NCBI RefSeq assembly: GCF_024684275.1
Contig: NZ_JAIKXF010000007.1
Location: forward strand, 1 to 21,932
Direction: 5' to 3'
DNA: 21,932 bases
From: Ruminococcus sp.
Lineage (GTDB): Bacteria; Bacillota_A; Clostridia; Oscillospirales; Ruminococcaceae
The notes under the pieces: model-generated
Databases searched by the model: none
Told to the model about the DNA's origin: nothing
Seen by the model: only the letters and a program-made list of their open reading frames with translations
Shown: piece by piece, positions 6,047 to 17,850 of the stretch
How positions within the stretch are numbered: the stretch's first letter is position 1
Layout of the letters: the number at the start of each line of letters is the position of its first letter
Translations under genes and position numbers: made by a program

Positions 6047-6086
6047 AAAATGCAGCCTATAAGGCAGATTCCCATATAAAATATTT

Positions 6087-6122
6087 GCCCCTGAGTGTTA
6101 AAAAGCACTCAGGGGCATTGTG
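6087..6122. terminator. Terminator between convergent genes
   Basis: GCCCCTGAGTG (6087-6097) pairs with CACTCAGGGGC (6106-6116) around an A-rich loop. It is followed by ATTGTGTTT on the + strand and by an AAATATTTT tract on the minus strand, so it can serve the aspartate kinase and the convergent heptad-repeat gene. Confidence 0.8.
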
Positions 6123-6163: not shown

Positions 6164-6198
6164 CTCTTAGTTCTTAGCTCTTAGTCCTTATCACTTAG
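6164..6198. repeat. Heptamer tandem array (5 units)
   Basis: Five consecutive 7-mers on the + strand: CTCTTAG, TTCTTAG, CTCTTAG, TCCTTAT, CACTTAG. The last two units overlap the stop and final codons of the minus-strand gene ending at 6191, so the array begins inside the coding sequence. Confidence 0.7.
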
Positions 6199-8905
6199 CT
6201 CCGTCTACCAGATAAATGAACTTAACACTGCCGTCCATTTTATCCGAAATGCCAGAGTAGCTGTTGTACTCCTGTGAAGCCTCTCTCAGCGCCTTGAATG
6301 TATCTATCATCTCAGGGAGAGCCTTGTCAACTGCGCCTGTGAGGACTGATACGCCCTCGTCGTTGAATTTTATCATACCGTCATTAAGCTCCTTCGCACC
6401 GTCCTCCAGCTTCTGAGTACCGTCCGTGAGAGTTTTGCTGCCGCTCTTCAGAGTACCGATACCGTTGTAAAGAGCCGCAGAACCGTCTGAAAGCCTGCCT
6501 GCGCCGCCGCTGAGAAGCTTTATTGAATCGTAAAGAGTCTTAGCGCCGCCGCTGAGCTGTGAGCTACCGCCGTACAGCTTAGCAAGTCCGCCGTCAAGGT
6601 CTGCCGCACCTGTGCTGAGCTGACCAAGACCGCCATTGAGCGTAATAGAGCCCTGTGCGAGCTGTGCAAGACCGCTGTCCAAAGCAGCAGCGCCGTTTGA
6701 TAGCTGTCCGATACCGCCGCTCAGGTCAACTGCTCCCTGCGAAAGCTGTCCGAGACCTGCATTGAGGGCTGTATTTCCGCCGCTTAACTGTTCTATACCT
6801 TTTATAAGTGAATCCAGACCGCCGATGAGCTGACCGCTGCCTCCTGCCAGAGTACCGATACCGCTGTCCAGTGCAGCTGCGCCTGTGCTAAGGTCTGCTG
6901 CGCCCTTTGCAAGCTGTGAAACAGAGCCTGAAAGCTGTGAAGCGCCTGATGCCAGTGCCTTGCCGCCGTCGTTAAGGGAAGCAAGCCCCTGCTGCAATGC
7001 CGCAGAGCCGCCCTGTGCAGCCTCAAGACCTGTATTGAGCTGACCAAGTCCGCCGCCAAGCTGTGCTGCGCCGTTCTTTACAGAAGCCGCGCCTGTGCTG
7101 AGCGCTCCGCCCTCTGCCATAGAAGCGGATATCTGCTTCTGACCGTCGATAGTCTGCTGTAACGTTCCTATCGCCACAGCAAGCTCCTGTGAGGGAGACT
7201 GCTGATATAATGCCTGTAAAGCTGCAAGAGCCTGCTCATTTGCTGTGATAGTAGTATCCAGAGAAGCACCTGCCTGTGCGATACCGTCACTGAGCTGTGA
7301 AGCCCCTGTGCTGAGAGCCTCCGCGCCGCTTACCAGTGAAGCTGCGCCTGTCTTTGCACTTGCAATACCCTCTGCAAGGCTGTCTGCACCGTTCTTAGCA
7401 GAGCCTATTCCTGCCGACATCTGTCCTGCGGATTCACTGAGCTTTGCTGCGCCGTCATCAAGTGCAGCCGCACCTGCCCCAAGCTTTGCAGAGCCGTCCT
7501 TGACCTGCTTGCTGCCGTCCGTGAGCTTGCCTACGCCGCCGCTGAGAGTATCAGCTCCTGCCTTGAGAGCTGCTGCGCCCTCGTCTGCCTGTCTGAATCC
7601 CTCTGCCATTGTGTCAGAGCCTGCCTTTGCGTCCTTGAGACCGCTGCTGAGAGCCTCTGCGCCTGCGCTTACCTTGCCGAAGCCGTCAACCAGTGCCGCA
7701 GAGCCGCTTTTCGCAGAGCCTATGCCCTCAGAGAGCTGTGCTGCTCCGCCGCTGACCTGACCGAGACCGTCTTTCAGCTTTGCAGAACCGTCCTTTGCGC
7801 TTCCCAGACCAGCCTCAAATGTACCTGTTGAATCCGAGAGAGTTTTAGCTCCGTCTGCAAGCTTCTTTGCGCCGTTATCAAGGTCAGCCGCACCCTTTTT
7901 CAGCTCCGCAGAGCCGCCGACGAGCTTATCTATGCCGCTTGTGAGGTCTCCTGCGCCGCTGTTCAGCTTCTTGACTCCGTCATAGAGAGAGGCTGTACCG
8001 TCGGTGAGCTTCTTAGCACCGTCACTGAGCTCCTTTAGCTTGCCCATTACATCGTCTATATCAACTGTCTCATCAAGGTCAAGCTGTGAGAATACCTCGT
8101 TTGATACAACTGTTACAGAGGTGTTCATCTCGAAGCCTCTTACATCTGCGGAAAGCTCAAAGCTTTCGGGAATATCAACGTCAAGTCCCTCTATACTGCC
8201 GAGGTCAAGGCTCTCGCCAAGTCCCGGGAATGCCATGCCCACAACGATGAGCTTTTCGCCGTCGGAAATGACTCTGCCGTTTGTGACCTCAACATTGAGG
8301 TACTTATCTGTGCTGAGAAGAGCTGCACTTGCAGCCATAAACGGCGCATAGATCTCCTTGTCAGTGCCGCCTATCCTCTTTGTGACCTTCTGATTGTTCT
8401 TGTATGTCCAGCGGATAACAAGGTGTCCGCTCTTGCCCACGATACTCTCGGGAGTTACCTTCTTACCGTCAAGGAAATACTCCATAGCAACGTCAACAGG
8501 CAGGTCCTTATTGCAATTGCCCTTGTAGTAGATGTCGTCGCCGTCAGCCTTCCAGCTTATATTCTCGCCTGATACCTCAAAGGTCTCGTCACCCTTGACG
8601 TTGACGATGTCGCTGAGGTCTGAGATATCGGATATACTCGACAGTGCAGGAGCATTTTTAAGCCAGTCGCTGACAACTACGTTCTTTACGGAGGAATCGC
8701 TGTTGCAGAGAACATAAACTGTCTCGTCCTTATAGGCATTATCGCCGCTGTCAGTTCTTGCAGGGCTCTCTGCTGTCTCATTTTTCTCCTTGACCTGCGG
8801 AGCGTCCTTCTCCTTGCTGCTGTTTGCGTATGCTATAGAGCCTGTAGCGCCTGCGGAAACTGCCGCAGCTACAAGTGCTGCCATTATCTTACTGAGCTTT
8901 TTCAT
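6191..8905 (-). CDS. Exported giant xxxLxxG heptad-repeat protein (YhgE/Pip-like repeats)
   Basis: A 904-residue exported protein. It has a Sec signal peptide (MKKLSKIMAALVAAAV..., cleavage near residue 27, after IAYA), a charged linker and a globular domain (about 60-285). From about 288 to 845 it is built almost wholly of seven-residue xxxLxxG units such as KKLTDGT and AQLSEGI. The repeats fall into two arms of about 256 and 246 residues, separated by a repeat-free segment of about 55 residues (546-600). The end is not hydrophobic, unlike YhgE/Pip proteins, whose repeats are followed by membrane helices. The ATG at 8905 is chosen because AGGAG stands 8 nt upstream; the ATG at 8911 is only 2 nt from it. 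It follows the MMPL transporter gene by 123 bp with no good terminator between, so it is probably its partner. Biochemical function is unknown. Confidence 0.82.
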   Translation of the reverse strand: MKKLSKIMAALVAAAVSAGATGSIAYANSSKEKDAPQVKEKNETAESPARTDSGDNAYKDETVYVLCNSDSSVKNVVVSDWLKNAPALSSISDISDLSDIVNVKGDETFEVSGENISWKADGDDIYYKGNCNKDLPVDVAMEYFLDGKKVTPESIVGKSGHLVIRWTYKNNQKVTKRIGGTDKEIYAPFMAASAALLSTDKYLNVEVTNGRVISDGEKLIVVGMAFPGLGESLDLGSIEGLDVDIPESFELSADVRGFEMNTSVTVVSNEVFSQLDLDETVDIDDVMGKLKELSDGAKKLTDGTASLYDGVKKLNSGAGDLTSGIDKLVGGSAELKKGAADLDNGAKKLADGAKTLSDSTGTFEAGLGSAKDGSAKLKDGLGQVSGGAAQLSEGIGSAKSGSAALVDGFGKVSAGAEALSSGLKDAKAGSDTMAEGFRQADEGAAALKAGADTLSGGVGKLTDGSKQVKDGSAKLGAGAAALDDGAAKLSESAGQMSAGIGSAKNGADSLAEGIASAKTGAASLVSGAEALSTGASQLSDGIAQAGASLDTTITANEQALAALQALYQQSPSQELAVAIGTLQQTIDGQKQISASMAEGGALSTGAASVKNGAAQLGGGLGQLNTGLEAAQGGSAALQQGLASLNDGGKALASGASQLSGSVSQLAKGAADLSTGAAALDSGIGTLAGGSGQLIGGLDSLIKGIEQLSGGNTALNAGLGQLSQGAVDLSGGIGQLSNGAAALDSGLAQLAQGSITLNGGLGQLSTGAADLDGGLAKLYGGSSQLSGGAKTLYDSIKLLSGGAGRLSDGSAALYNGIGTLKSGSKTLTDGTQKLEDGAKELNDGMIKFNDEGVSVLTGAVDKALPEMIDTFKALREASQEYNSYSGISDKMDGSVKFIYLVDGAK

Positions 8906-9028
8906 ATCCATCTCTCCTTTATATGTGTATGTGTTACAATTTAGATACGGCTTAATGCGCGGAATAAAAATCGTGCTCCACAAGAAGTGAAACGCGAAAA
9001 AGCCTGCGGGGGCTCCCCACTAATGCCA

Positions 9029-11128
9029 TTAAGCGTTTTTGAATCTGTATGTGTACTTTTCTGCCTTTGGCATGAAGCCTGCGCTTGTCTTGCAGATAAG
9101 CTTATCAAATACCATGAACATTGACGGCAGTGTTACTATTACTACCACCATTGAGATAAGCGCACCTCTTGCAAGGAGCATACACAGCTCTGAGATAAGT
9201 CCGATATCCGAGTAAACGGCAACACCTACTGTAGCAGCAAAGAAGCCCAGAGCCGATGTGATTATGGACTTTATTGAGGTGCTGAGAGCGATGCCCACTG
9301 ACTCCTTTTTGTCCTTGCCGCTGTGTCTCTCTGTGCGGTATCTCGTTGTCATGAGTATAGCATAGTCAACTGTAGCGCCAAGCTGTATGGTCCCTATTAC
9401 TATAGGAGCTATGAATGACAGCGTAGAGCCTGTATAGCAGGCTGTGCCGAGGTTTATCATAATAGCCAGCTCTATGACCGATACAAGGATAACAGGCAGT
9501 GATATTGACTTGAAGGTAAATGCTATGATAAGGAATATAGCACCTATTGAAAGCAGATTTACCACCTTGAAGTCCTTATCGGTGATAGTGATGAGGTCCT
9601 TTGTTGCAGGAGCCTCGCCTATGAGCATACTGTCGGGATCGTACTTATGGGCAATATCATCTATCTTGCCGACCTGAGCATTTACCTCGTCAGAGGCTAC
9701 CTCGTACTCAGAGCCGATAAGCATTATCTGCCACTCGTCGCTCTTCAGGACATCTCTTATCTCGTCGGGAACGACCTCCTCGGGAATAGCCGAGCCTACC
9801 AGCGAATTGAAGCCTGCCGCAAACTGAACTCCGTCCACATCCTTTATTTCGGCAAGCATTTTGTTTGCGTCCTTAGCGCTCATATCCGAATCCGCCATGA
9901 GGATATGTGTGCTGTTCATGCCGTACTCCTCAGCAAGCTTTGTATTAGCGATAACGCTGTCAAGATTTGCAGGGAGTGTGCTGTCCAGCTTATAGTAAAC
10001 GCCATAATGGCTGTTGCCGTAAAGTGCAGGGATAAGTACAACTATAGCCGCTGTAAGGAATATCCACGAGTTTTTCACGATAAATGAAGATGTGCGCTTG
10101 AATGCAGGGAGGAAATCCTTGTGTGAGGTCTTTGCTATAGCCTTGTCAAAGACAAGTATCATCGCAGGAAGAACTGTTACACAGGCAATAACGCCGCATA
10201 CAACGCCCTTTGCCATTACCACGCCAAGATCAAGACCAAGTGTGAAGGTCATAAAGCACATTGCAAGGAAGCCTGCGACTGTCGTGAATGAGCTTCCCAC
10301 AACAGATGTGATAGTAGCGGCAATAGCGTGTGCCATAGCCTCCTGTCTGCTGTCAGGGTAGTAGCTCTGCTGCTCCTTGTAGCTGTGCCACAGGAATATT
10401 GAATAATCCATTGTAACACCCAGCTGTAGTACCATTGCAAGAGCCTGTGTTATAAAGGATATTTCTCCGAGGAATATGTTAGAGCCAAGATTCCAGACTA
10501 CCGCAAAGCCTATGCTCAGCATGAAGAACAATGGTATAAGGAAAGAATCCATAGTTACCATAAGCACTATGCTTGTGAGAGCTGCCGCGATCACCGCATA
10601 GATAAGAGTCTCGCTCTGAGTGATCTTTTTCATATCCAGAGTAATAGCGGACATACCGCTTACAAAACACTGCTCAGAGGCTATCCCTCTTATTTCCTCA
10701 ACGGCGTCAAGAGTTGAGTCAGCCGAGGTGGTATCGTCGAAAAATACCGCCATCATTGTATTGTCGCCCTTGTTGAAGAAATCGTAAATATCCGCTGGGA
10801 GGATCTCCTTCGGGATATTGCAGTCTGTCATGGACTGATAGCATACCACATTTGAAACGTGATCTACTGCCTCTATCTTATCGGCAGTCTCCGCCACTTC
10901 CTTGTCGCTCATTCCCTCCACCATTACAAGGGAAAAGCCGCCCTGACCGAACTGCTCTTTGAGGATATCCTGTCCCACCATAGTATTTATGTCCTTTGGC
11001 AGATAGGATAGTATATCATAGTTTACACGGGTCTTCAGATAACCCATTGCCGAGGGCAGAAGCAAAACAATGCCGAATATGAGTATCAGGGCTCTGTGTT
11101 TTGCTATCCATTCACCGAATTTCAGCAT
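9029..11128 (-). CDS. MMPL/RND-superfamily membrane transporter
   Basis: A 699-residue integral membrane transporter of the MMPL/YdfJ type, half-pseudosymmetric with about 12 membrane helices. One helix near residues 12-30 is followed by an extracytoplasmic domain (about 32-170) and a helix block (170-330). A second helix at 355-370, a second domain (372-520) and a second block (522-675) follow. Each block has the family's proton-relay type motif: GVTMDY (237-242) and GATVDY (584-589). Relatives export lipids or hydrophobic compounds using the proton motive force; the substrate here is unknown. The ATG at 11128 has AAAGGA 8 nt upstream; the longer open frame to 11257 reaches toward the promoter and is unlikely. 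It is transcribed from 11287-11315 under three TetR-type operators, and the heptad-repeat gene follows. Confidence 0.9.
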   Translation of the reverse strand: MLKFGEWIAKHRALILIFGIVLLLPSAMGYLKTRVNYDILSYLPKDINTMVGQDILKEQFGQGGFSLVMVEGMSDKEVAETADKIEAVDHVSNVVCYQSMTDCNIPKEILPADIYDFFNKGDNTMMAVFFDDTTSADSTLDAVEEIRGIASEQCFVSGMSAITLDMKKITQSETLIYAVIAAALTSIVLMVTMDSFLIPLFFMLSIGFAVVWNLGSNIFLGEISFITQALAMVLQLGVTMDYSIFLWHSYKEQQSYYPDSRQEAMAHAIAATITSVVGSSFTTVAGFLAMCFMTFTLGLDLGVVMAKGVVCGVIACVTVLPAMILVFDKAIAKTSHKDFLPAFKRTSSFIVKNSWIFLTAAIVVLIPALYGNSHYGVYYKLDSTLPANLDSVIANTKLAEEYGMNSTHILMADSDMSAKDANKMLAEIKDVDGVQFAAGFNSLVGSAIPEEVVPDEIRDVLKSDEWQIMLIGSEYEVASDEVNAQVGKIDDIAHKYDPDSMLIGEAPATKDLITITDKDFKVVNLLSIGAIFLIIAFTFKSISLPVILVSVIELAIMINLGTACYTGSTLSFIAPIVIGTIQLGATVDYAILMTTRYRTERHSGKDKKESVGIALSTSIKSIITSALGFFAATVGVAVYSDIGLISELCMLLARGALISMVVVIVTLPSMFMVFDKLICKTSAGFMPKAEKYTYRFKNA

Positions 11129-11286
11129 AATATCAATCCTTTCTTTGTGTATTTCCCGAGCATATATTGAAAGTCCGCCAGCCGTTATACCTTTAGGAGA
11201 ATAAAGCATACTGTTTTGGGAAAGAAACAGAAAATGAATTGCTGAGCGGACATTCAATATACGCCCGATTATCGTTGTTATTACAT

Positions 11287-11315
11287 AGTATATTACAAAA
11301 ATGACCGTTAGTCAA
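11287..11315 (-). promoter_or_regulatory. Promoter of the MMPL transporter gene
   Basis: Read on the minus strand: TTGACT (11315-11310), 17-bp spacer, TATACT (11292-11287). Operator 1 (11302-11314) covers most of the -35 box and part of the spacer, so bound regulator would exclude polymerase. Confidence 0.85.
11302..11314. promoter_or_regulatory. TetR-type operator 1
   Basis: TGACCGTTAGTCA, of the form TGACC-N3-GGTCA with one arm mismatch. It overlaps the -35 box of the transporter promoter. Confidence 0.8.
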
Positions 11316-11334
11316 CTGCAACTCTGTCAAAAAA

Positions 11335-11347
11335 TGACTTTCGGTCA
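11335..11347. promoter_or_regulatory. TetR-type operator 2
   Basis: TGACTTTCGGTCA, which reads TGACCGAAAGTCA on the minus strand. Its centre is 33 bp from operator 1, about three helical turns, and it sits upstream of the transporter promoter. Confidence 0.75.
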
Positions 11348-11387
11348 TATTTTTGTATACCTGCACAATTTGACATCTGAAATATCG

Positions 11388-11400
11388 TGACCGTTGGTCA
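11388..11400. promoter_or_regulatory. TetR-type operator 3
   Basis: TGACCGTTGGTCA: arms TGACC and GGTCA match perfectly around GTT. Its centre is 53 bp from operator 2 (about five helical turns), and it ends 11 bp before the -35 box of the regulator promoter, suggesting autoregulation. Confidence 0.82.
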
Positions 11401-11411
11401 TTTTTGTACCC

Positions 11412-11440
11412 TTGACAGTCACTGTTTTTCGGGATATAAT
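11412..11440 (+). promoter_or_regulatory. Promoter of the TetR-family regulator gene
   Basis: TTGACA (11412-11417), 17-bp spacer, TATAAT (11435-11440): exact consensus in both boxes. The leader to the chosen ATG is about 127 nt. Confidence 0.9.
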
Positions 11441-11573
11441 AAGTAATGTAAACTCAGTTCAGGCGGCGCAGATTATTTAATTTAACCTGTATGACAGATC
11501 CGAAATCAAATGCGAAATGCCGTCCTCGGTATTCTGCACAAAATCAAATGATAAAAAAGGGAGGGGTGTCTTA

Positions 11574-12191
11574 ATGGGCAAGGTCGATACTAACAAAAAA
11601 CTCAAGGAAAACTCACTGCTGAAAACAGCATTCGAGTTCTTTACCACAAAAGGCTTCAGCAAGACCTCCATAACCGACATCGTAAGTAAGGCAGGAGTTG
11701 CAAAGGGAACCTTTTACCTTTACTTCAAGGATAAATACGACATAAGAAACAAGCTTATATCACATAAATCCAGCCAGCTTTTCAAAAACGCAATGGCTGA
11801 TCTGGGCGGTCAGCTGGACGGTCTCCCCTTTGAGGAAAAGATGATAAGGATCATAGACCATATCATCAATCAGCTCACAGAAAATCAGGCTCTGCTGACA
11901 TTTATCTCGAAAAATCTGAGCTGGGGCGTATTCAAGAACGCCATAAATTCACCTATATCCGACGATGACGCAGACTTTTCCACCATATACGAAAAGATAC
12001 TTTCCGAAGCACCAAAGGGCATAAGATCACCTGAGATAATGCTGTTTATGATAATTGAGCTGGTTAGCTCTACCATATATTCCGCCATACTCTACAAGGA
12101 GCCCTGCTCCCTTGAAAAGCTCAAGCCCTATCTGTATAACACCATAAAAATGATAGTCGCACAGCATGAGGGAACCAGCATTAAGCAATAA
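11574..12191 (+). CDS. TetR/AcrR-family transcriptional regulator
   Basis: A 205-residue repressor of the usual TetR size. The N-terminal DNA-binding domain (about 10-58) shows the classical pattern: AFEFFTTKGFSKTSITDI, then the recognition helix region VSKAGVAKGTFYLYF and KDKYD. The rest is an all-helical ligand-binding and dimerisation part, whose ligand cannot be read from sequence. The ATG at 11574 has AGGGAGGGG (11558-11566) 7 nt upstream; an in-frame ATG at 11517 has none. It is divergent from the MMPL transporter, and three copies of a TGACC-N3-GGTCA-like site lie in the shared control region. I infer that it represses the transporter operon and probably itself, and is released by a compound that the transporter handles. 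Confidence 0.92.
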   Translation: MGKVDTNKKLKENSLLKTAFEFFTTKGFSKTSITDIVSKAGVAKGTFYLYFKDKYDIRNKLISHKSSQLFKNAMADLGGQLDGLPFEEKMIRIIDHIINQLTENQALLTFISKNLSWGVFKNAINSPISDDDADFSTIYEKILSEAPKGIRSPEIMLFMIIELVSSTIYSAILYKEPCSLEKLKPYLYNTIKMIVAQHEGTSIKQ

Positions 12192-12199
12192 AAAAATAG

Positions 12200-12240
12200 C
12201 AAAAGGCAGTCCGATCGGACTGCCTTTTGTTTATTTTTTA
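12200..12240. terminator. Bidirectional terminator, perfect 30-bp palindrome
   Basis: CAAAAGGCAGTCC (12200-12212), GATC, GGACTGCCTTTTG (12217-12229): fully self-complementary. T-rich tracts follow on both strands (TTTATTTTTTA on +, TATTTTTTTATT on -). It ends the regulator gene and, from the other side, the MATE gene. Confidence 0.85.
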
Positions 12241-12338: not shown

Positions 12339-13679
12339 TCACCTTGTTATGTTTTTAAGCCATTTATACTTCATGTAATGCTTGTATACCGCAGGTATTT
12401 TCACAAATTCGTCCAGCGTGAGTATGAATGCTACCGCAAGGACAGGTAATTTCAGCCAGAAAGCCGCTATCAGCCCCATTGGCACCACTACACACCCGAG
12501 CGTTACAATATCGCATATCATGCCGAATCGGGTGTCTCCGCCTGACGGGAATATACCGCTTATGATAGTTGAATTCAATGAATTTCCGATAATGTAATAA
12601 GCCGCCATGAACATCATATACTTCAGGTAATATTGTGCCTGCGGATCAAGAACTATAACTCTCAGGATAATCGGTGTCAGCGCAAGTATGACCACTCCCG
12701 AGCCTGCTCCGATAAGAAGCGAAAGCCTCACGAACTTTCCGCCAGCCTTTTTGGCAGCTTCTATCTCATTTCTGCCAAGCATACCGCCGATAACGATACC
12801 TACACCTGCGGCAATGCCCCAGCAGAGGCTGGCTATCATGCTGCGAACTATGCTTGCAATGGAATTTGCCGCAACAGCGTCACTTCCCAACCTGCCCATG
12901 ATGACAGAATACATGGTAACTCCGCCGCCCCAGCCAAGCTGATTCAGCAGTATCGGCAGGGTATATCTTATGTAGTCCTTATGCAGAACGGCTTCATTAA
13001 GGCGGAAAAGCATACCGACACGAAGCGGCGGACACTTGCCGCGAAGCATTACCACAAGGATAAACACGCACTCAAAGGCTCGCGCAAGTACCGTCGCTAA
13101 AGCCGCACCTGCTATGCCCATTTCGGGGAAAGGTCCGATACCAAAGATAAGCAGACCGTTTGCGATAATATTGAAAATTACGGAAAAGCTTCCGATAAGG
13201 GAGCTCAGCCCTGCGCAGTCGCAGACCTTCATAATGCCGAAATAAGCCTGCGAGAAGCCTGCAAGCACGTATGAGAGAGCTACAGTGCGCAGATAAACTC
13301 CGCCAAGACGTATGAGCTCGGGCTTGTTGGTAAATATCCGCATTATGTATTCAGGAATTATAAATGCCGCCAGAGTGAAAAAAGCTCCCACAATGAGAGA
13401 GTATCTCATGGTAATTGCGAGGACCTTCTCGACGGTCATGTGATCCTTTTTACCCCAGTACTGAGCCGCAAGGACATTACAGCCCGACACGAAAGCCATA
13501 AAAAACAGACTGTACACAAATGCCGCCTGACCTGCCAGCGACGAAGCCGACAGCGAATCCTGATCCATAAATCCCAGCATAAAGGCGTCCGAAGCCGATA
13601 CCAGTGATGACATAAAGTACTGGAAGGCAATGGGCGCAACTATTTTAAACAGATTTTTGTATAATCCTTTATCTTTCAT
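12339..13679 (-). CDS. MATE-family multidrug efflux transporter
   Basis: A 446-residue MATE (NorM/DinF/MepA-like) antiporter with about 12 hydrophobic helices, normal for the family. It exports cationic drugs or metabolites in exchange for Na+ or H+. The N-terminal half begins KNLFKIVAPIAFQYFMSSLVSASDAFMLGF and contains SGCNVLAAQYWGKKD, a typical MATE loop after the second helix. The pseudo-repeat of the second half starts near YIRYTLPILLNQLGWGGGVTMYSVIMGRLG. The ATG at 13679 is preferred because AAGGAG is 4 nt upstream; the longer frame to 13697 runs into the palindrome at 13695-13727. It is an independent unit between terminators. The substrate is unknown. Confidence 0.9.
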   Translation of the reverse strand: MKDKGLYKNLFKIVAPIAFQYFMSSLVSASDAFMLGFMDQDSLSASSLAGQAAFVYSLFFMAFVSGCNVLAAQYWGKKDHMTVEKVLAITMRYSLIVGAFFTLAAFIIPEYIMRIFTNKPELIRLGGVYLRTVALSYVLAGFSQAYFGIMKVCDCAGLSSLIGSFSVIFNIIANGLLIFGIGPFPEMGIAGAALATVLARAFECVFILVVMLRGKCPPLRVGMLFRLNEAVLHKDYIRYTLPILLNQLGWGGGVTMYSVIMGRLGSDAVAANSIASIVRSMIASLCWGIAAGVGIVIGGMLGRNEIEAAKKAGGKFVRLSLLIGAGSGVVILALTPIILRVIVLDPQAQYYLKYMMFMAAYYIIGNSLNSTIISGIFPSGGDTRFGMICDIVTLGCVVVPMGLIAAFWLKLPVLAVAFILTLDEFVKIPAVYKHYMKYKWLKNITR

Positions 13680-13694
13680 ATATCTCCTTTTTCT

Positions 13695-13727
13695 CAAATA
13701 AAAATCATTATTAATGATTTTTATTTG
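13695..13727. promoter_or_regulatory. Perfect 33-bp palindrome upstream of the MATE gene (candidate operator)
   Basis: Arms of 16 bp (13695-13710 and 13712-13727) around a single central T: left arm CAAATAAAAATCATTA, right arm TAATGATTTTTATTTG. It begins only 16 bp upstream of the ATG, just before the ribosome site. AT-rich palindromes in this position are typical targets of MarR-like regulators, but no regulator gene is adjacent. As RNA it could also fold over the translation start. Confidence 0.65.
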
Positions 13728-15373: not shown

Positions 15374-16888
15374 TCAATTTTTATCATAATCGGAAATATC
15401 AAAGCGAACAGGCTCGTCCTTATATTCCGAAACCTTAACGTACTCTATAGTAACGTCCTTAGTCGGCTTATCACCTTCGCCCACCTCAACGTTCTGGACA
15501 TCGAAAACGATGTCAAGTCCGTCGAATACCTGACCGAAGATAGTATAGCTTCCGTCAAGCCACGGTGCACCGCCGTTTTTGGAATAAATTTCCTTTTCGT
15601 TTTCGGTAAAGAAGTAACCGCTGTCCTCCAGCTGTTTTATCTGGTCGCCGTCATACTTCTGACCTGTAACGATATAGAACTGGCTTCCGCTTGAAGCAGT
15701 CGAGCCGCTGTTTGCGTATGCAACAGCGCCTGCGGCGTGGATAAGATGGGAATCTGTACCGTCGTCAAAGCCCTTTTCGTATATGGACTCACCGCCTGTA
15801 CCGTCGCCCTTAGGATCGCCGCCCTGTATCATGAAATCCTTGATAACTCTGTGGAATGTAAGGCCGTCATAATAGCCCTTTTCGGCGTGTTCCAAAAAGC
15901 TTGGAACGCCCTTTTCGGCAAACTCGGGGAAGAGCTTGATCTTTATCTCTCCGTCATAGCCCTTGAGCTTCATGGAAACGATCTTTTCGCCCTTTCTCGG
16001 AGCTGTGAAGTTAGCTATTGAGATATTCTCCTTGCCAGTAGCCTGTCTGATAGCTTCGCCGTCTATCTCGTCGTATTCGTCGAGATACCAGTGTATCTCC
16101 TCGCCGTTATACTCGCCTACAGTAACCGAATCCACGATAACATCTCTGAACGGCATACTGCTCTGAGCATCGACTGCTACGTTCTGTATCTTGAATATAA
16201 CATCGAGTCCGTCGATGACCTGACCGAAAACGGTGTAATTGCCGTCAAGCCACGGAGCACCGCCGACCTTTTTATATATAGCCTTTGCGTTGTCGGAGAA
16301 AGCATAGCCTGCCGCCGCAAAGTCCGAGAAATTCTCATCTGTGGGGACTGTACCTGTTACCACATAGAACTGGCTTCCGTCAGTAGAGGTACCGCCGCTG
16401 TTTGCATAAGCAAGAGCACCTGCACAGTGGATAAGGTGGGGATCAGTACCGCCGTCGAACTTTCCGCCCCAGATACTTTCGCCGCCCATGCCTGTGCCTT
16501 CGGGATCGCCGCCCTGTATCATGAAGTCCTTGATGACTCTGTGGAACTTGAGTCCGTCGTAGTAACCCTTTTTAGCCAGCTCGACGAAGTTTTCAACGCC
16601 CTTGTCCGCATATTCGGGGAAGAGCCTGAACTTTACCGCACCATAATCCTTGATATTCATAGTAACTATGGTATCGCCCTTCTGTGGAGCTGTAAAATTT
16701 GCTATATCAACATTTTCTGCTGTAAGAGGCTCTGTTGACGCCTCTGTGGTATCTGTCCCTGAGGAACTCGTCGTACCAGAGGTGTTTGAAGCGGAACTGC
16801 CGCTTTCCTTGTTATCCTTGCCGCATGATGTAACGGCAGAGAACACCAGAGCTGTGCAGAAAATACCTGCAAGAATTCTTCTAAACAT
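15374..16888 (-). CDS. Lipoprotein with two tandem cyclophilin-type peptidyl-prolyl isomerase domains
   Basis: A 504-residue extracytoplasmic lipoprotein. The signal peptide ends in a lipobox-like VTSC (C22), followed by a Ser/Thr/Gly linker (30-55). Two cyclophilin domains follow (about 64-260 and 294-490), clear duplicates of each other. Both keep the catalytic FHRVIKDFMIQGGDP motif, with Arg at 117 and 347 and Gln at 125 and 355, and also GSQFY (171-175, 401-405). Both domains should therefore be active in folding of exported proteins at Xaa-Pro bonds. The ATG at 16888 has AAGGAG about 7 nt upstream; the longer open frame to 16993 would run through the promoter at 16932-16960 and is rejected. 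Most bacterial cyclophilins have one domain. Confidence 0.9.
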   Translation of the reverse strand: MFRRILAGIFCTALVFSAVTSCGKDNKESGSSASNTSGTTSSSGTDTTEASTEPLTAENVDIANFTAPQKGDTIVTMNIKDYGAVKFRLFPEYADKGVENFVELAKKGYYDGLKFHRVIKDFMIQGGDPEGTGMGGESIWGGKFDGGTDPHLIHCAGALAYANSGGTSTDGSQFYVVTGTVPTDENFSDFAAAGYAFSDNAKAIYKKVGGAPWLDGNYTVFGQVIDGLDVIFKIQNVAVDAQSSMPFRDVIVDSVTVGEYNGEEIHWYLDEYDEIDGEAIRQATGKENISIANFTAPRKGEKIVSMKLKGYDGEIKIKLFPEFAEKGVPSFLEHAEKGYYDGLTFHRVIKDFMIQGGDPKGDGTGGESIYEKGFDDGTDSHLIHAAGAVAYANSGSTASSGSQFYIVTGQKYDGDQIKQLEDSGYFFTENEKEIYSKNGGAPWLDGSYTIFGQVFDGLDIVFDVQNVEVGEGDKPTKDVTIEYVKVSEYKDEPVRFDISDYDKN

Positions 16889-16931
16889 GATTTCACTCCT
16901 TGAAAACGTGAAACTATACTTCAACTTATAT

Positions 16932-16960
16932 ATTATACACCACAAAAAACGTTTTGTAAA
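16932..16960 (-). promoter_or_regulatory. Promoter of the two-domain cyclophilin gene
   Basis: Minus strand: TTTACA (16960-16955), 17-bp spacer, TATAAT (16937-16932), about 45 nt before the ATG. Confidence 0.8.
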
Positions 16961-17043
16961 GAGTTTTCGCAATTTTTTGTATTTTTCAGACAAACAGAGC
17001 AGTTAAAACATGGTGATTTATTCTGAAAATCAACGGTATACTG

Positions 17044-17850
17044 TTATTTCTCAGCCTCTGCCTTTGCTTCCTCAGCAGCGGAATAGGTGCCTATAACAAC
17101 AGATTTTATCTTCACGTCCTGCACAGGGACTTTATAAGCGCCCATCTCCTGTACTTCGAGGCTTGCCAGCTTCTCTACCACGTCCATGCCCTTATATGTC
17201 TGACCGATCACAGTCATCTGCTGAGAGAAATTCGGAACGCCGCCATGCTCGATAAAGGCATCTGCCAGCTTTTCGCTTTCTGAGTAGTCTCTGATCTCCT
17301 GCTTGAACTCGTCGCTGAACTCCACTGTATTCAGTGTCATAAAGCGGCTTCCGTTATAATATGTGCCGCCGCCGAGAATTTTCTGCTTAAAGCTTCTTTC
17401 AAAAGTGGTATTCATTGCCAAAACAGCACCCTTGAATGGCCACAGGTCCTGATGAAGCTCTCTCTCGACCAGCTCATGGGAATTATCATTAGCATTGCCG
17501 TTTTTATTGGGAGCACCTGCTGCTGAGTAAACTCCGCTGTCCGAATGGAAAATATAGGTGCCGTTATAATAGCCCTGCTTTGCCAGCTCTGTAAAGTTAG
17601 CGACCGCATTCGGGGAATACTGCGGATAGAGCACGAATCGGTATTCGCCAAGAGTAGTATCCACAATAGCGATAGGATCGCCGTCCTTAGGGGGATCGAG
17701 CTGAACCAGCTTCATGGTCTCGGCTTCAATGGTGATGTAGCTGTTATTACGTGCCACAAGGGTGTTCCTGAGCATTATCACCAGTGAGGAAACGCCCATT
17801 ATAAGAGTAAATATCAGCACAAGTCTGACAGCATTGTTCTTTTTAAACAT
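17044..17850 (-). CDS. Membrane-anchored cyclophilin-like protein lacking catalytic residues
   Basis: A 268-residue protein with an N-terminal signal anchor (helix about 8-27, short cytoplasmic MFKKNN) and a cyclophilin-fold domain outside the cell (about 58-256). The family outline is plain: VDTTLGEYRFVLYPQYSPNAVANFTELAKQGYYNG, then GAVLAMN, GSRF and a C-terminal IGQTYKGMDVVEKL. The catalytic segment is not conserved. FHRVIxxFMIQGGDP is replaced by FHSDSGVYSAAGAP (101-114), so the essential Arg is Ser and the Gln is Ala. It probably lacks isomerase activity and may bind proline-containing exported proteins or partners. It ends in an Ala/Glu/Lys tail. The ATG has AAAGGA 7 nt upstream and a consensus promoter. 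It precedes the active two-domain paralogue. Confidence 0.82.
   Translation of the reverse strand: MFKKNNAVRLVLIFTLIMGVSSLVIMLRNTLVARNNSYITIEAETMKLVQLDPPKDGDPIAIVDTTLGEYRFVLYPQYSPNAVANFTELAKQGYYNGTYIFHSDSGVYSAAGAPNKNGNANDNSHELVERELHQDLWPFKGAVLAMNTTFERSFKQKILGGGTYYNGSRFMTLNTVEFSDEFKQEIRDYSESEKLADAFIEHGGVPNFSQQMTVIGQTYKGMDVVEKLASLEVQEMGAYKVPVQDVKIKSVVIGTYSAAEEAKAEAEK

Follow-up and report, generated by a model that had tools for sequence, protein, structure and literature searches.

Gut and rumen Clostridia share a two-gene module, kept together in many genomes, in which a gene for a compact MMPL transporter is followed by one for an exported heptad-repeat protein with a predicted long hairpin, here termed HEPT. 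The window analysed comprises 21,932 nt of Ruminococcus sp. (GCF_024684275.1, contig NZ_JAIKXF010000007.1, positions 1 to 21,932, forward strand). The existence of its TetR / MMPL / heptad-repeat gene arrangement, which an earlier note on this DNA had interpreted as an export module, is confirmed, and the interpretation itself is supported by the comparisons reported here. The module may allow a thick-walled cell to push greasy compounds outward; to our knowledge, the outward passage of hydrophobic compounds past the thick Gram-positive wall is poorly understood. As the best explanation of the whole, we see about an even chance that HEPT serves the upstream compact MMPL (RND-type) pump as a dedicated extracytoplasmic partner, forming an outward stalk under TetR control.

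Table 1. Features of the TetR / MMPL / HEPT locus in the window (residue numbers refer to HEPT).
Feature	Position	Strand	Basis
Terminator-like hairpin behind HEPT, strong	6086..6117	both strands flagged	pattern scan
HEPT, exported head-plus-hairpin protein (predicted), 904 aa	6191..8905	-	ORF call, TIGR03057 170 bits, AlphaFold2
C-terminal strand, residues 891-900, predicted to close head	6206..6235	-	AlphaFold2
Hairpin arm 2, residues 573-879	6269..7189	-	AlphaFold2, glycine-phase test
Tip segment, residues 546-600, interrupts heptads, dN/dS below arms	7106..7270	-	AlphaFold2, dN/dS, gap count
Hairpin arm 1, residues 283-569, heptads from 289	7199..8059	-	AlphaFold2, glycine-phase test
HEPT head, residues 58-273, predicted beta domain resembling mu-homology domain	8087..8734	-	AlphaFold2; same fold in P0050
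Putative signal peptide, residues 1-27	8825..8905	-	by eye: hydrophobic stretch and AYA site; low-confidence helix 4-27 in AlphaFold2
Compact MMPL transporter, 699 aa, without coiled-coil insert	9029..11128	-	PF03176; best solved relative MmpL5
Promoter-like TTGACT-17-TATACT for MMPL-HEPT	11287..11315	-	10/12 matches; scan not above shuffles
Operator-like site 1, overlaps -35 hexamer of MMPL promoter-like site	11302..11314	.	pattern
Operator-like site 2	11335..11347	.	pattern
Operator-like site 3, just upstream of TetR -35 hexamer	11388..11400	.	pattern
Promoter-like TTGACA-17-TATAAT for TetR	11412..11440	+	12/12 matches; scan not above shuffles
TetR-family regulator	11574..12191	+	PF00440
Terminator-like hairpin behind TetR, strong	12198..12231	+	pattern scan

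The gene pairing is conserved, and the divergence of its two proteins is correlated. The earlier note had expected homologues of the heptad gene to adjoin conserved MMPL and TetR genes. An MMPL gene lies next upstream of HEPT on the same strand in 69 of 70 places in a class sample, in 23 of 27 new places in a phylum sample and in 20/20 loci from Ruminococcus-type or unclassified Bacillota, so that the expectation holds for MMPL; the regulator is more loosely associated, occurring near MMPL in 48 of 69 places and not found in 21. The MMPL-HEPT gap is zero or negative in 34/69 places, which points to co-transcription. No fused MMPL-HEPT protein occurs among the 70 class-sample places, where the longest head-containing open frame spans 1086 codons. 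No MMPL gene was present in the retrieved stretch around three distant head homologues (L174, L175 and L176), two of which have an apparent membrane helix at the C-terminus. Head divergence follows that of MMPL (r 0.90 over 47 loci, a value inflated by shared descent) more closely than that of TetR (r 0.68), with a partial r of 0.82. As TetR genes may be exchanged, they provide an imperfect control.

The window MMPL matches PF03176 with 169.1 bits (Pfam cut-off 20.5), and its best solved relative is MmpL5 (E 6.8e-14). It aligns along its length with coil-less MmpL5, contains no large insert and shows no 3.5-residue coiled-coil periodicity (z -1.3). MMPLs linked to HEPT have a compact size (median 697 aa) and do not form one clade in the MMPL tree, where the partnerless MMPL of L123 groups with the HEPT-linked one of L115. 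In several MMPL types that lack HEPT, inserts of 74-727 aa lie near the position of the MmpL5 coil, according to our own mapping on a weak alignment. The large PD2 insert of L126 lacks 3.5-residue periodicity (z 0.8) and thus gives no sign of a coiled coil. MMPLs of ~820 aa adjoin a second type of partner, which is exported and whose middle part contains a coil. No evidence on the substrate of the MMPL-HEPT pair was found.

HEPT starts at an ATG preceded by a GGAGAG site and contains TIGR03057 xxxLxxG heptads (170.2 bits, cut-off 18.6 in the repeat-model search). The heptad pattern greatly exceeds chance: in a single phase the two arms carry 34 and 33 glycines, whereas 5000 shuffles per arm never gave more than 17 and 18, respectively. 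A Pfam search at E 0.001 assigned HEPT to no family, mu-homology included. With residues 1-310 (first heptads included) as query, 3584 proteins were recovered at E 0.001 from 7990 scored candidates; they are named mostly after their repeats, if at all. The pairing with MMPL provides a function lead for this large protein family. The earlier note called the protein giant: the 904-aa frame stands, but its size is relative, as homologues range from about 420 to 1075 aa. Most of the exported family proteins have neither a lipobox nor a C-terminal anchor; lipobox-like starts were found by a simple pattern in 4 of 68 HEPTs, whose heads would accordingly be kept at the membrane.

AlphaFold2 models of the window HEPT and of its relative P0050 (mean pLDDT 78.9 and 81.4, pTM only 0.48 and 0.47) both consist of a head, a hairpin and a closing strand. 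The predicted architecture is an antiparallel hairpin rising from a beta head that combines the N-terminal domain with the final strand, with ~287 residues per arm, corresponding to ~43 nm if straight at 0.15 nm/residue. Kinks at 397-403 and 739-746 lie at equal distance from the tip. The tips of the two models have different shapes, that of P0050 being a differently shaped helical bundle enlarged on the second-arm side, which makes a single tip partner for the whole family unlikely. The mu-homology-like fold of the head is seen in both predicted full-length models, and no mu-homology domain occurs among the best 50 Foldseek matches of the window model. MmpS-type Ig folds are likewise absent among the best 50 structural matches, which is uninformative either way. 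A PDB sequence search with A4 gave matches confined to columns 203-303, mostly heptads.

The two heptad arms change length in lockstep, and these matched changes, together with the two models, back the long hairpin proposed in the earlier note. The arms are free of gaps in 16 of 19 comparable loci, and the other three have lost 21+21, 14+14 and 14+14 residues (L003, whose arm 2 reading frame deviates from that of the family, was excluded). Among 26 proteins of distinct length, obtained by merging equal-length copies and requiring tip, head and C-terminal motif matches, arm lengths covary with r 0.997 over the 22 retained, which represent 11 distinct length pairs. The four dropped (P0046, P0055, P0059 and L054) have weaker tip matches (E 4e-15 to 8e-05 versus 2e-23 or better), and r is 0.80 when they are put back. 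In each of them the first arm measures 142 and the second part is 95-179 longer; they represent either false tip matches or a tip enlarged on the second side, as in P0050. In rounded values, the arms differ by 46-48 in 19/22 retained proteins, by about 54 in P0033 and by about 60 in P0032 and P0034; the original length table gives 53 and 59 for these three. The tip is under stronger constraint than the arms, with dN/dS of 0.02-0.08 versus 0.11-0.20 in three comparisons, tip and C-terminus being short segments (L001 and L005 cover all segments, L013 those other than C-terminus and MMPL). Arm length varies widely across the family, and a fixed wall-spanning length is therefore not required.

The TetR gene product matches the N-terminal DNA-binding model PF00440 (49.2 bits, Pfam cut-off 24). 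As the earlier note described, TetR and MMPL are divergent and share a control region (11129-11573). Three TGAC-N5-GTCA sites occur in this region, and the window has no other strict match to the pattern. Three such putative sites are present in 19/19 Ruminococcus-type divergent regions, the window included, and two or three in 8 of 9 further strong-group regions. Even one relaxed site was found in only 4 of 18 distant regions, which limits this operator type to the nearer group. Over the whole scan, promoter-like sites show no excess over shuffles (10 versus 9.0), and terminator-like sites number 14 versus 6.0. The previously reported lack of a good terminator between MMPL and HEPT was borne out: a terminator in the gap (8906-9028) is rejected, since the hairpins flagged by pattern scan at 9020-9006 and 8993-8975 are weak and folding of the gap does not surpass that of shuffled sequences (z -1.25, 26/200 as good).

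If HEPT is an outward stalk, its head would dock on the MMPL porter domains from outside, and the hairpins, perhaps several per pump, would be directed outward, with the conserved tip contacting some partner within the wall or past it. Such an arrangement would lead a hydrophobic or amphipathic substrate off the membrane and keep it from falling back, HEPT playing in trans the role of the in-cis coiled coil in mycobacterial MmpL5. TetR would repress the operon via the three operators until substrate arrives.

Alternatively, though this is rather unlikely, HEPT could be an acceptor or carrier whose amphipathic Gly/Ala/Leu arms hold an MMPL-lifted lipid or amphiphile in solution or in the wall, with no conduit. 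This would agree with its mostly anchorless export, its nearly constant pairing with a putative exporter and the presence of apoB100 among the helical Foldseek matches of the HEPT models. However, such helical matches are matches to a common arrangement, and lockstep heptads and a constrained tip are more readily explained by a rod whose end does the work than by a binding surface. It appears improbable that HEPT is a sensor or allosteric regulator, its tip reading the wall or an outside ligand and its head gating MMPL. The long rod with symmetric kinks does connect constrained tip and head, and divergence is partner-specific, but Pfam and repeat-model searches matched no signalling domain, regulation may already come from TetR, and the P0050 tip has another shape. 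We give little credence to a surface stalk (adhesin, wall linker or phage-receptor-like) merely co-regulated with MMPL. YhgE/Pip proteins, of which Pip is a phage receptor, also carry xxxLxxG repeats, and P0036, a HEPT relative, is labelled YhgE/Pip by one source; against this stand the gene order, the overlapping reading frames and the divergence correlated with MMPL. Moreover, NCBIfam contains N- and C-terminal Pip models, none of which matched HEPT at E 0.001, and no wall anchor was seen by eye in the inspected C-termini. A Pip-type membrane protein is ruled out for the window HEPT, which also lacks a hydrophobic C-terminal segment. Accidental synteny of related species is barely conceivable: the 20 loci are all Ruminococcus-type or unclassified Bacillota, but their flanking genes change while the pair stays, the pair persists down to ~20% head-region identity, and the class and phylum samples contradict it.

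Taking HEPT as the extracytoplasmic partner of MMPL, we tentatively suggest, with somewhat less than even confidence, that Clostridia evolved their own two-part RND-type export machine, in which a compact MMPL is joined by a separately exported, length-tunable hairpin stalk with a mu-homology-like head. The two arms of this stalk would gain and lose heptads jointly, so that each lineage sets the conserved tip at its own distance from the membrane. Counting in the second partner type of the ~820-aa MMPLs, Clostridial MMPL pumps would as a rule have stalks in trans. As the partner is widespread and both its arms can be trimmed by whole heptads, the question of reach is directly testable.

A literature search covering titles and abstract beginnings, with most subscription journals outside its reach, returned no paper on a HEPT-like MMPL partner. 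HEPT shares its glycine heptad type (TIGR03057) with YhgE/Pip and other xxxLxxG proteins; Pip proteins are membrane proteins, and unlike them HEPT has another head, an MMPL neighbour and no C-terminal membrane domain. Periplasmic adaptor (membrane fusion) proteins of Gram-negative bacteria are likewise exported RND-pump partners with an alpha-helical hairpin, but HEPT has no outer membrane to reach and, given its lack of Pfam matches at E 0.001, no lipoyl, beta-barrel or adaptor domain model. The head resembles the mu-homology domain of AP complexes, COPI delta and muniscins in predicted fold, at ~10% identity and in an exported bacterial protein, which suggests that a mu-homology-like fold also exists outside the eukaryotic cytoplasm. 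As in the Staphylococcus aureus FarR-FarE system, a TetR-type regulator is divergent from an RND-superfamily efflux gene in a Gram-positive cell; the opening parts of the abstracts on FarR-FarE give unsaturated fatty acids as FarE substrates and mention no HEPT-like partner. With mycobacterial MmpS5-MmpL5 (PMC12501195), the module shares an MMPL pump, and the long outward antiparallel coiled coil and the repressor control of that system are predicted for the module as well. In the mycobacterial system, the coil is an insert at residues 493-682 of MmpL5, modelled as a tube of ~13 nm, its deletion abolishes efflux, and the separate protein, MmpS5, is Ig-like (PMC12501195). In the Clostridial module, by contrast, the predicted coil is itself a separate exported protein, ~3 times as long and carrying a mu-homology-like beta head.

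The window encodes an MMPL transporter (PF03176), a TetR regulator (PF00440) and, 123 nt behind the MMPL gene, HEPT, an exported heptad-repeat protein. HEPT starts with a signal peptide (recognised by eye), followed by a head, two xxxLxxG heptad runs and, at the C-terminus, a short tail. Glycine keeps one phase in 34 of 36 heptads of the first run and 33 of 35 of the second (maximum 17 and 18, respectively, in 5000 shuffles), with no phase slip inside either run. A close locus, from Ruminococcus flavefaciens YL228 (L001), shares 94% amino-acid identity in MMPL, 93% over the N-terminal 301 residues of HEPT and up to 100% in flanking genes. A MATE-type efflux gene (12339-13697) adjoins the TetR gene; it is present in 14 of a set of 20 HEPT loci, lying away from TetR in two (L003 and L013). 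At 15374-16993 the window also encodes a probable exported peptidyl-prolyl isomerase (named by eye) made of two similar halves in tandem, with a related gene behind it (17044-17850; by eye).

Positions of the transporter, heptad-repeat and regulator genes in the window
Gene	Position	Strand	Length
MMPL transporter	11128..9029	-	699 aa
HEPT	8905..6191	-	904 aa
TetR regulator	11574..12191	+ (opposite direction to MMPL and HEPT)	

The MMPL-HEPT pair is widely conserved. MMPL lies directly upstream of HEPT in all 20 loci of this set, including a fragment at a contig end (L010), and TetR is present in 18; the remaining two, L010 and L014, are truncated at contig ends. The 20 loci vary in their flanking genes. 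Across 291 genomes of the class, the HEPT head profile identified 70 places in 69 genomes, all of which were examined (69 fetched, the 70th being L001). In 69 of these MMPL comes directly before HEPT in the same orientation, and in the sole exception (L087) the contig stops about 330 nt upstream of HEPT. The intervening gap has a median of 2 nt and is zero or negative in 34 of 69 cases; the widest (470) occurs at L077, which has a short HEPT frame. A broader profile matched 182 of 299 phylum genomes, most matches listed spanning heptad columns only. Among the matches listed to E ~1e-6, those of at least 33 genomes reach into the head by reading; six of these genomes were already in the class sample, leaving 27 new places. 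MMPL is directly upstream in 23 of the 27 and absent next to HEPT in four, namely three orphans with other neighbour genes (L174, L175 and L176) and a 228-aa HEPT fragment (L178) whose upstream contig, about 1.6 kb long, contains no MMPL. The conserved MMPL neighbour anticipated by the earlier note is thus borne out, while its TetR partner proved looser: of 69 class places, 48 have a recognised TetR gene no more than 1.5 kb from MMPL (divergent in 28, on the same strand in 20) and 21 have none by a profile built from one branch, which may overlook other TetR branches. No description of the MMPL-HEPT pair was found in the open-licence full-text literature searched.

Two orphan HEPT-like proteins (L175:6102-8069 and L176:5423-7372) carry a C-terminal hydrophobic segment and are flanked by a small membrane protein on one side and by a copper-amine-oxidase-like protein (by eye) on the other, with mraZ-like and cell-division genes nearby. 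HEPT frames are interrupted or end early in L003, L077, L122 and L177, reflecting decay or assembly error.

The TetR-MMPL control region contains three 13-bp palindromes, TGAC-N5-GTCA, at 11302, 11335 and 11388; the window has no other strict match to this pattern. With a relaxed pattern, three or four such sites occur in 19 of 19 Ruminococcus-type divergent regions, window included (0.01-0.07 expected from shuffles), mainly spaced by 53-54 and 32-34 bp; farther relatives mostly lack them. The palindrome at 11302 covers the -35 hexamer of a promoter-like site of MMPL, a placement expected of a repressor site.

The arms of HEPT vary together in length. Of 19 comparable loci from the 20-locus set (L003 excluded), 16 show no gap relative to the window in either arm at identities down to 68%, and the other three have lost whole heptads equally from both arms (21+21 residues in L017, 14+14 in L018 and in L019). 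Among 22 rows kept for strong tip matches, out of 26 distinct rows with a tip match, head-to-tip length ranges from 142 to 276 residues in whole-heptad steps (within ~1 residue) and is tracked by tip-to-end length (r 0.997; 11 distinct pairs), the difference being 46-48 in 19 rows, 54 in one and 60 in two; the four dropped rows have unequal arms, and including them gives r 0.80. An antiparallel hairpin anchored at its base would be expected to change in this paired way, and the pattern supports the hairpin independently. The tip is more constrained (dN/dS 0.021, 0.073 and 0.077) than the arms (0.11-0.20) in three comparisons; values are 0.04 to 0.17 for the head and 0.056 and 0.078 for MMPL (two comparisons).

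PF03176 matches occur in 240 of the 291 class genomes. We fetched all 30 MMPL genes without a prior HEPT tie among the matches listed (E <=3.2e-23). Five are followed by a HEPT-family gene: L151 and L122 (HEPT in pieces) were recognised by profile, whereas L134, L135 and L138 were first spotted by eye, and the profile that scores them was built with them included. A different exported protein follows 14 others (L127, L132, L133, L136, L137 and L140-L148), whose MMPLs have about 770-850 aa (at most 847; 638 in one truncated at a contig end) and whose partners have about 1070-1180 aa (815, cut, to 1179). The L136 partner, the one read over its full length, combines repeats that we take to be GLUG-like with a long helical middle and a C-terminal membrane helix; the other 13 were assigned to its group on size and position and on resemblance at both termini and in the middle. 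These GLUG-type partners have a central coil and mostly a C-terminal membrane helix. Periodicity of 3.5 residues is strong in central parts of six of the 14 (z 8.9-14.3), as it is in the arms of HEPT (z 15.9) and in four divergent HEPTs (z 6.9-17.1), and absent from two control proteins (z -1.3 and -0.5). The GLUG-type protein is a second candidate in-trans stalk.

Four MMPLs of ~950 aa (L124, L129, L130 and L131) lack such a partner; the one aligned, L124, has a coil-like, heptad-containing insert in its first porter domain (z 4.3). L149 is a fifth, partial member of this type. A sialidase-like gene (by eye) follows MMPL in L130 and L131. Two further MMPLs, of 1402 aa (L126:3764-7972) and 1347 aa (L128:6129-10172), hold very large inserts of ~700 aa near the MmpL5 coil site, with repeated helical-looking units of ~65 residues (by eye); coiled-coil periodicity was not found in the L126 insert. 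L125 carries an insert of 109 aa and lacks a partner, L123 lacks both, and L139 and L150 stop at contig ends.

On a midpoint-rooted tree of 58 MMPLs (34 class places, L122, L134, L135, L138, 12 of the 14 GLUG-linked, and four, two and two of the remaining types), partner labels cluster with five changes against a minimum of four (0/200 shuffles as low), so partner exchange is rare. HEPT-linked MMPLs are not one clade (three changes needed), and L123 pairs with L115. The GLUG-linked group nests among HEPT-linked MMPLs, so HEPT linkage may, given the midpoint root only, be the older state.

We propose that the compact MMPL would extract its hydrophobic substrate from the membrane, with HEPT held at the pump by its head, and in a few species possibly also by lipid (lipobox-like starts in 4 of 68 HEPTs), carrying outward a rod predicted to be ~43 nm long. 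Fatty acids are a guess at the substrate, by analogy with FarE, an efflux gene of S. aureus. The best solved relative of the window MMPL is the mycobacterial pump MmpL5, whose coil position falls at about residue 448 of the window MMPL in a weak alignment, close to the inserts of other Clostridial MMPLs (after 447 and 456). The window's HEPT-linked MMPL has no insert there, and HEPT-linked MMPLs are short as a group. In MmpL5 the coil (residues 493-682) is built in cis, and according to PMC12501195 it is ~13 nm long, modelled as a tube and needed for efflux.
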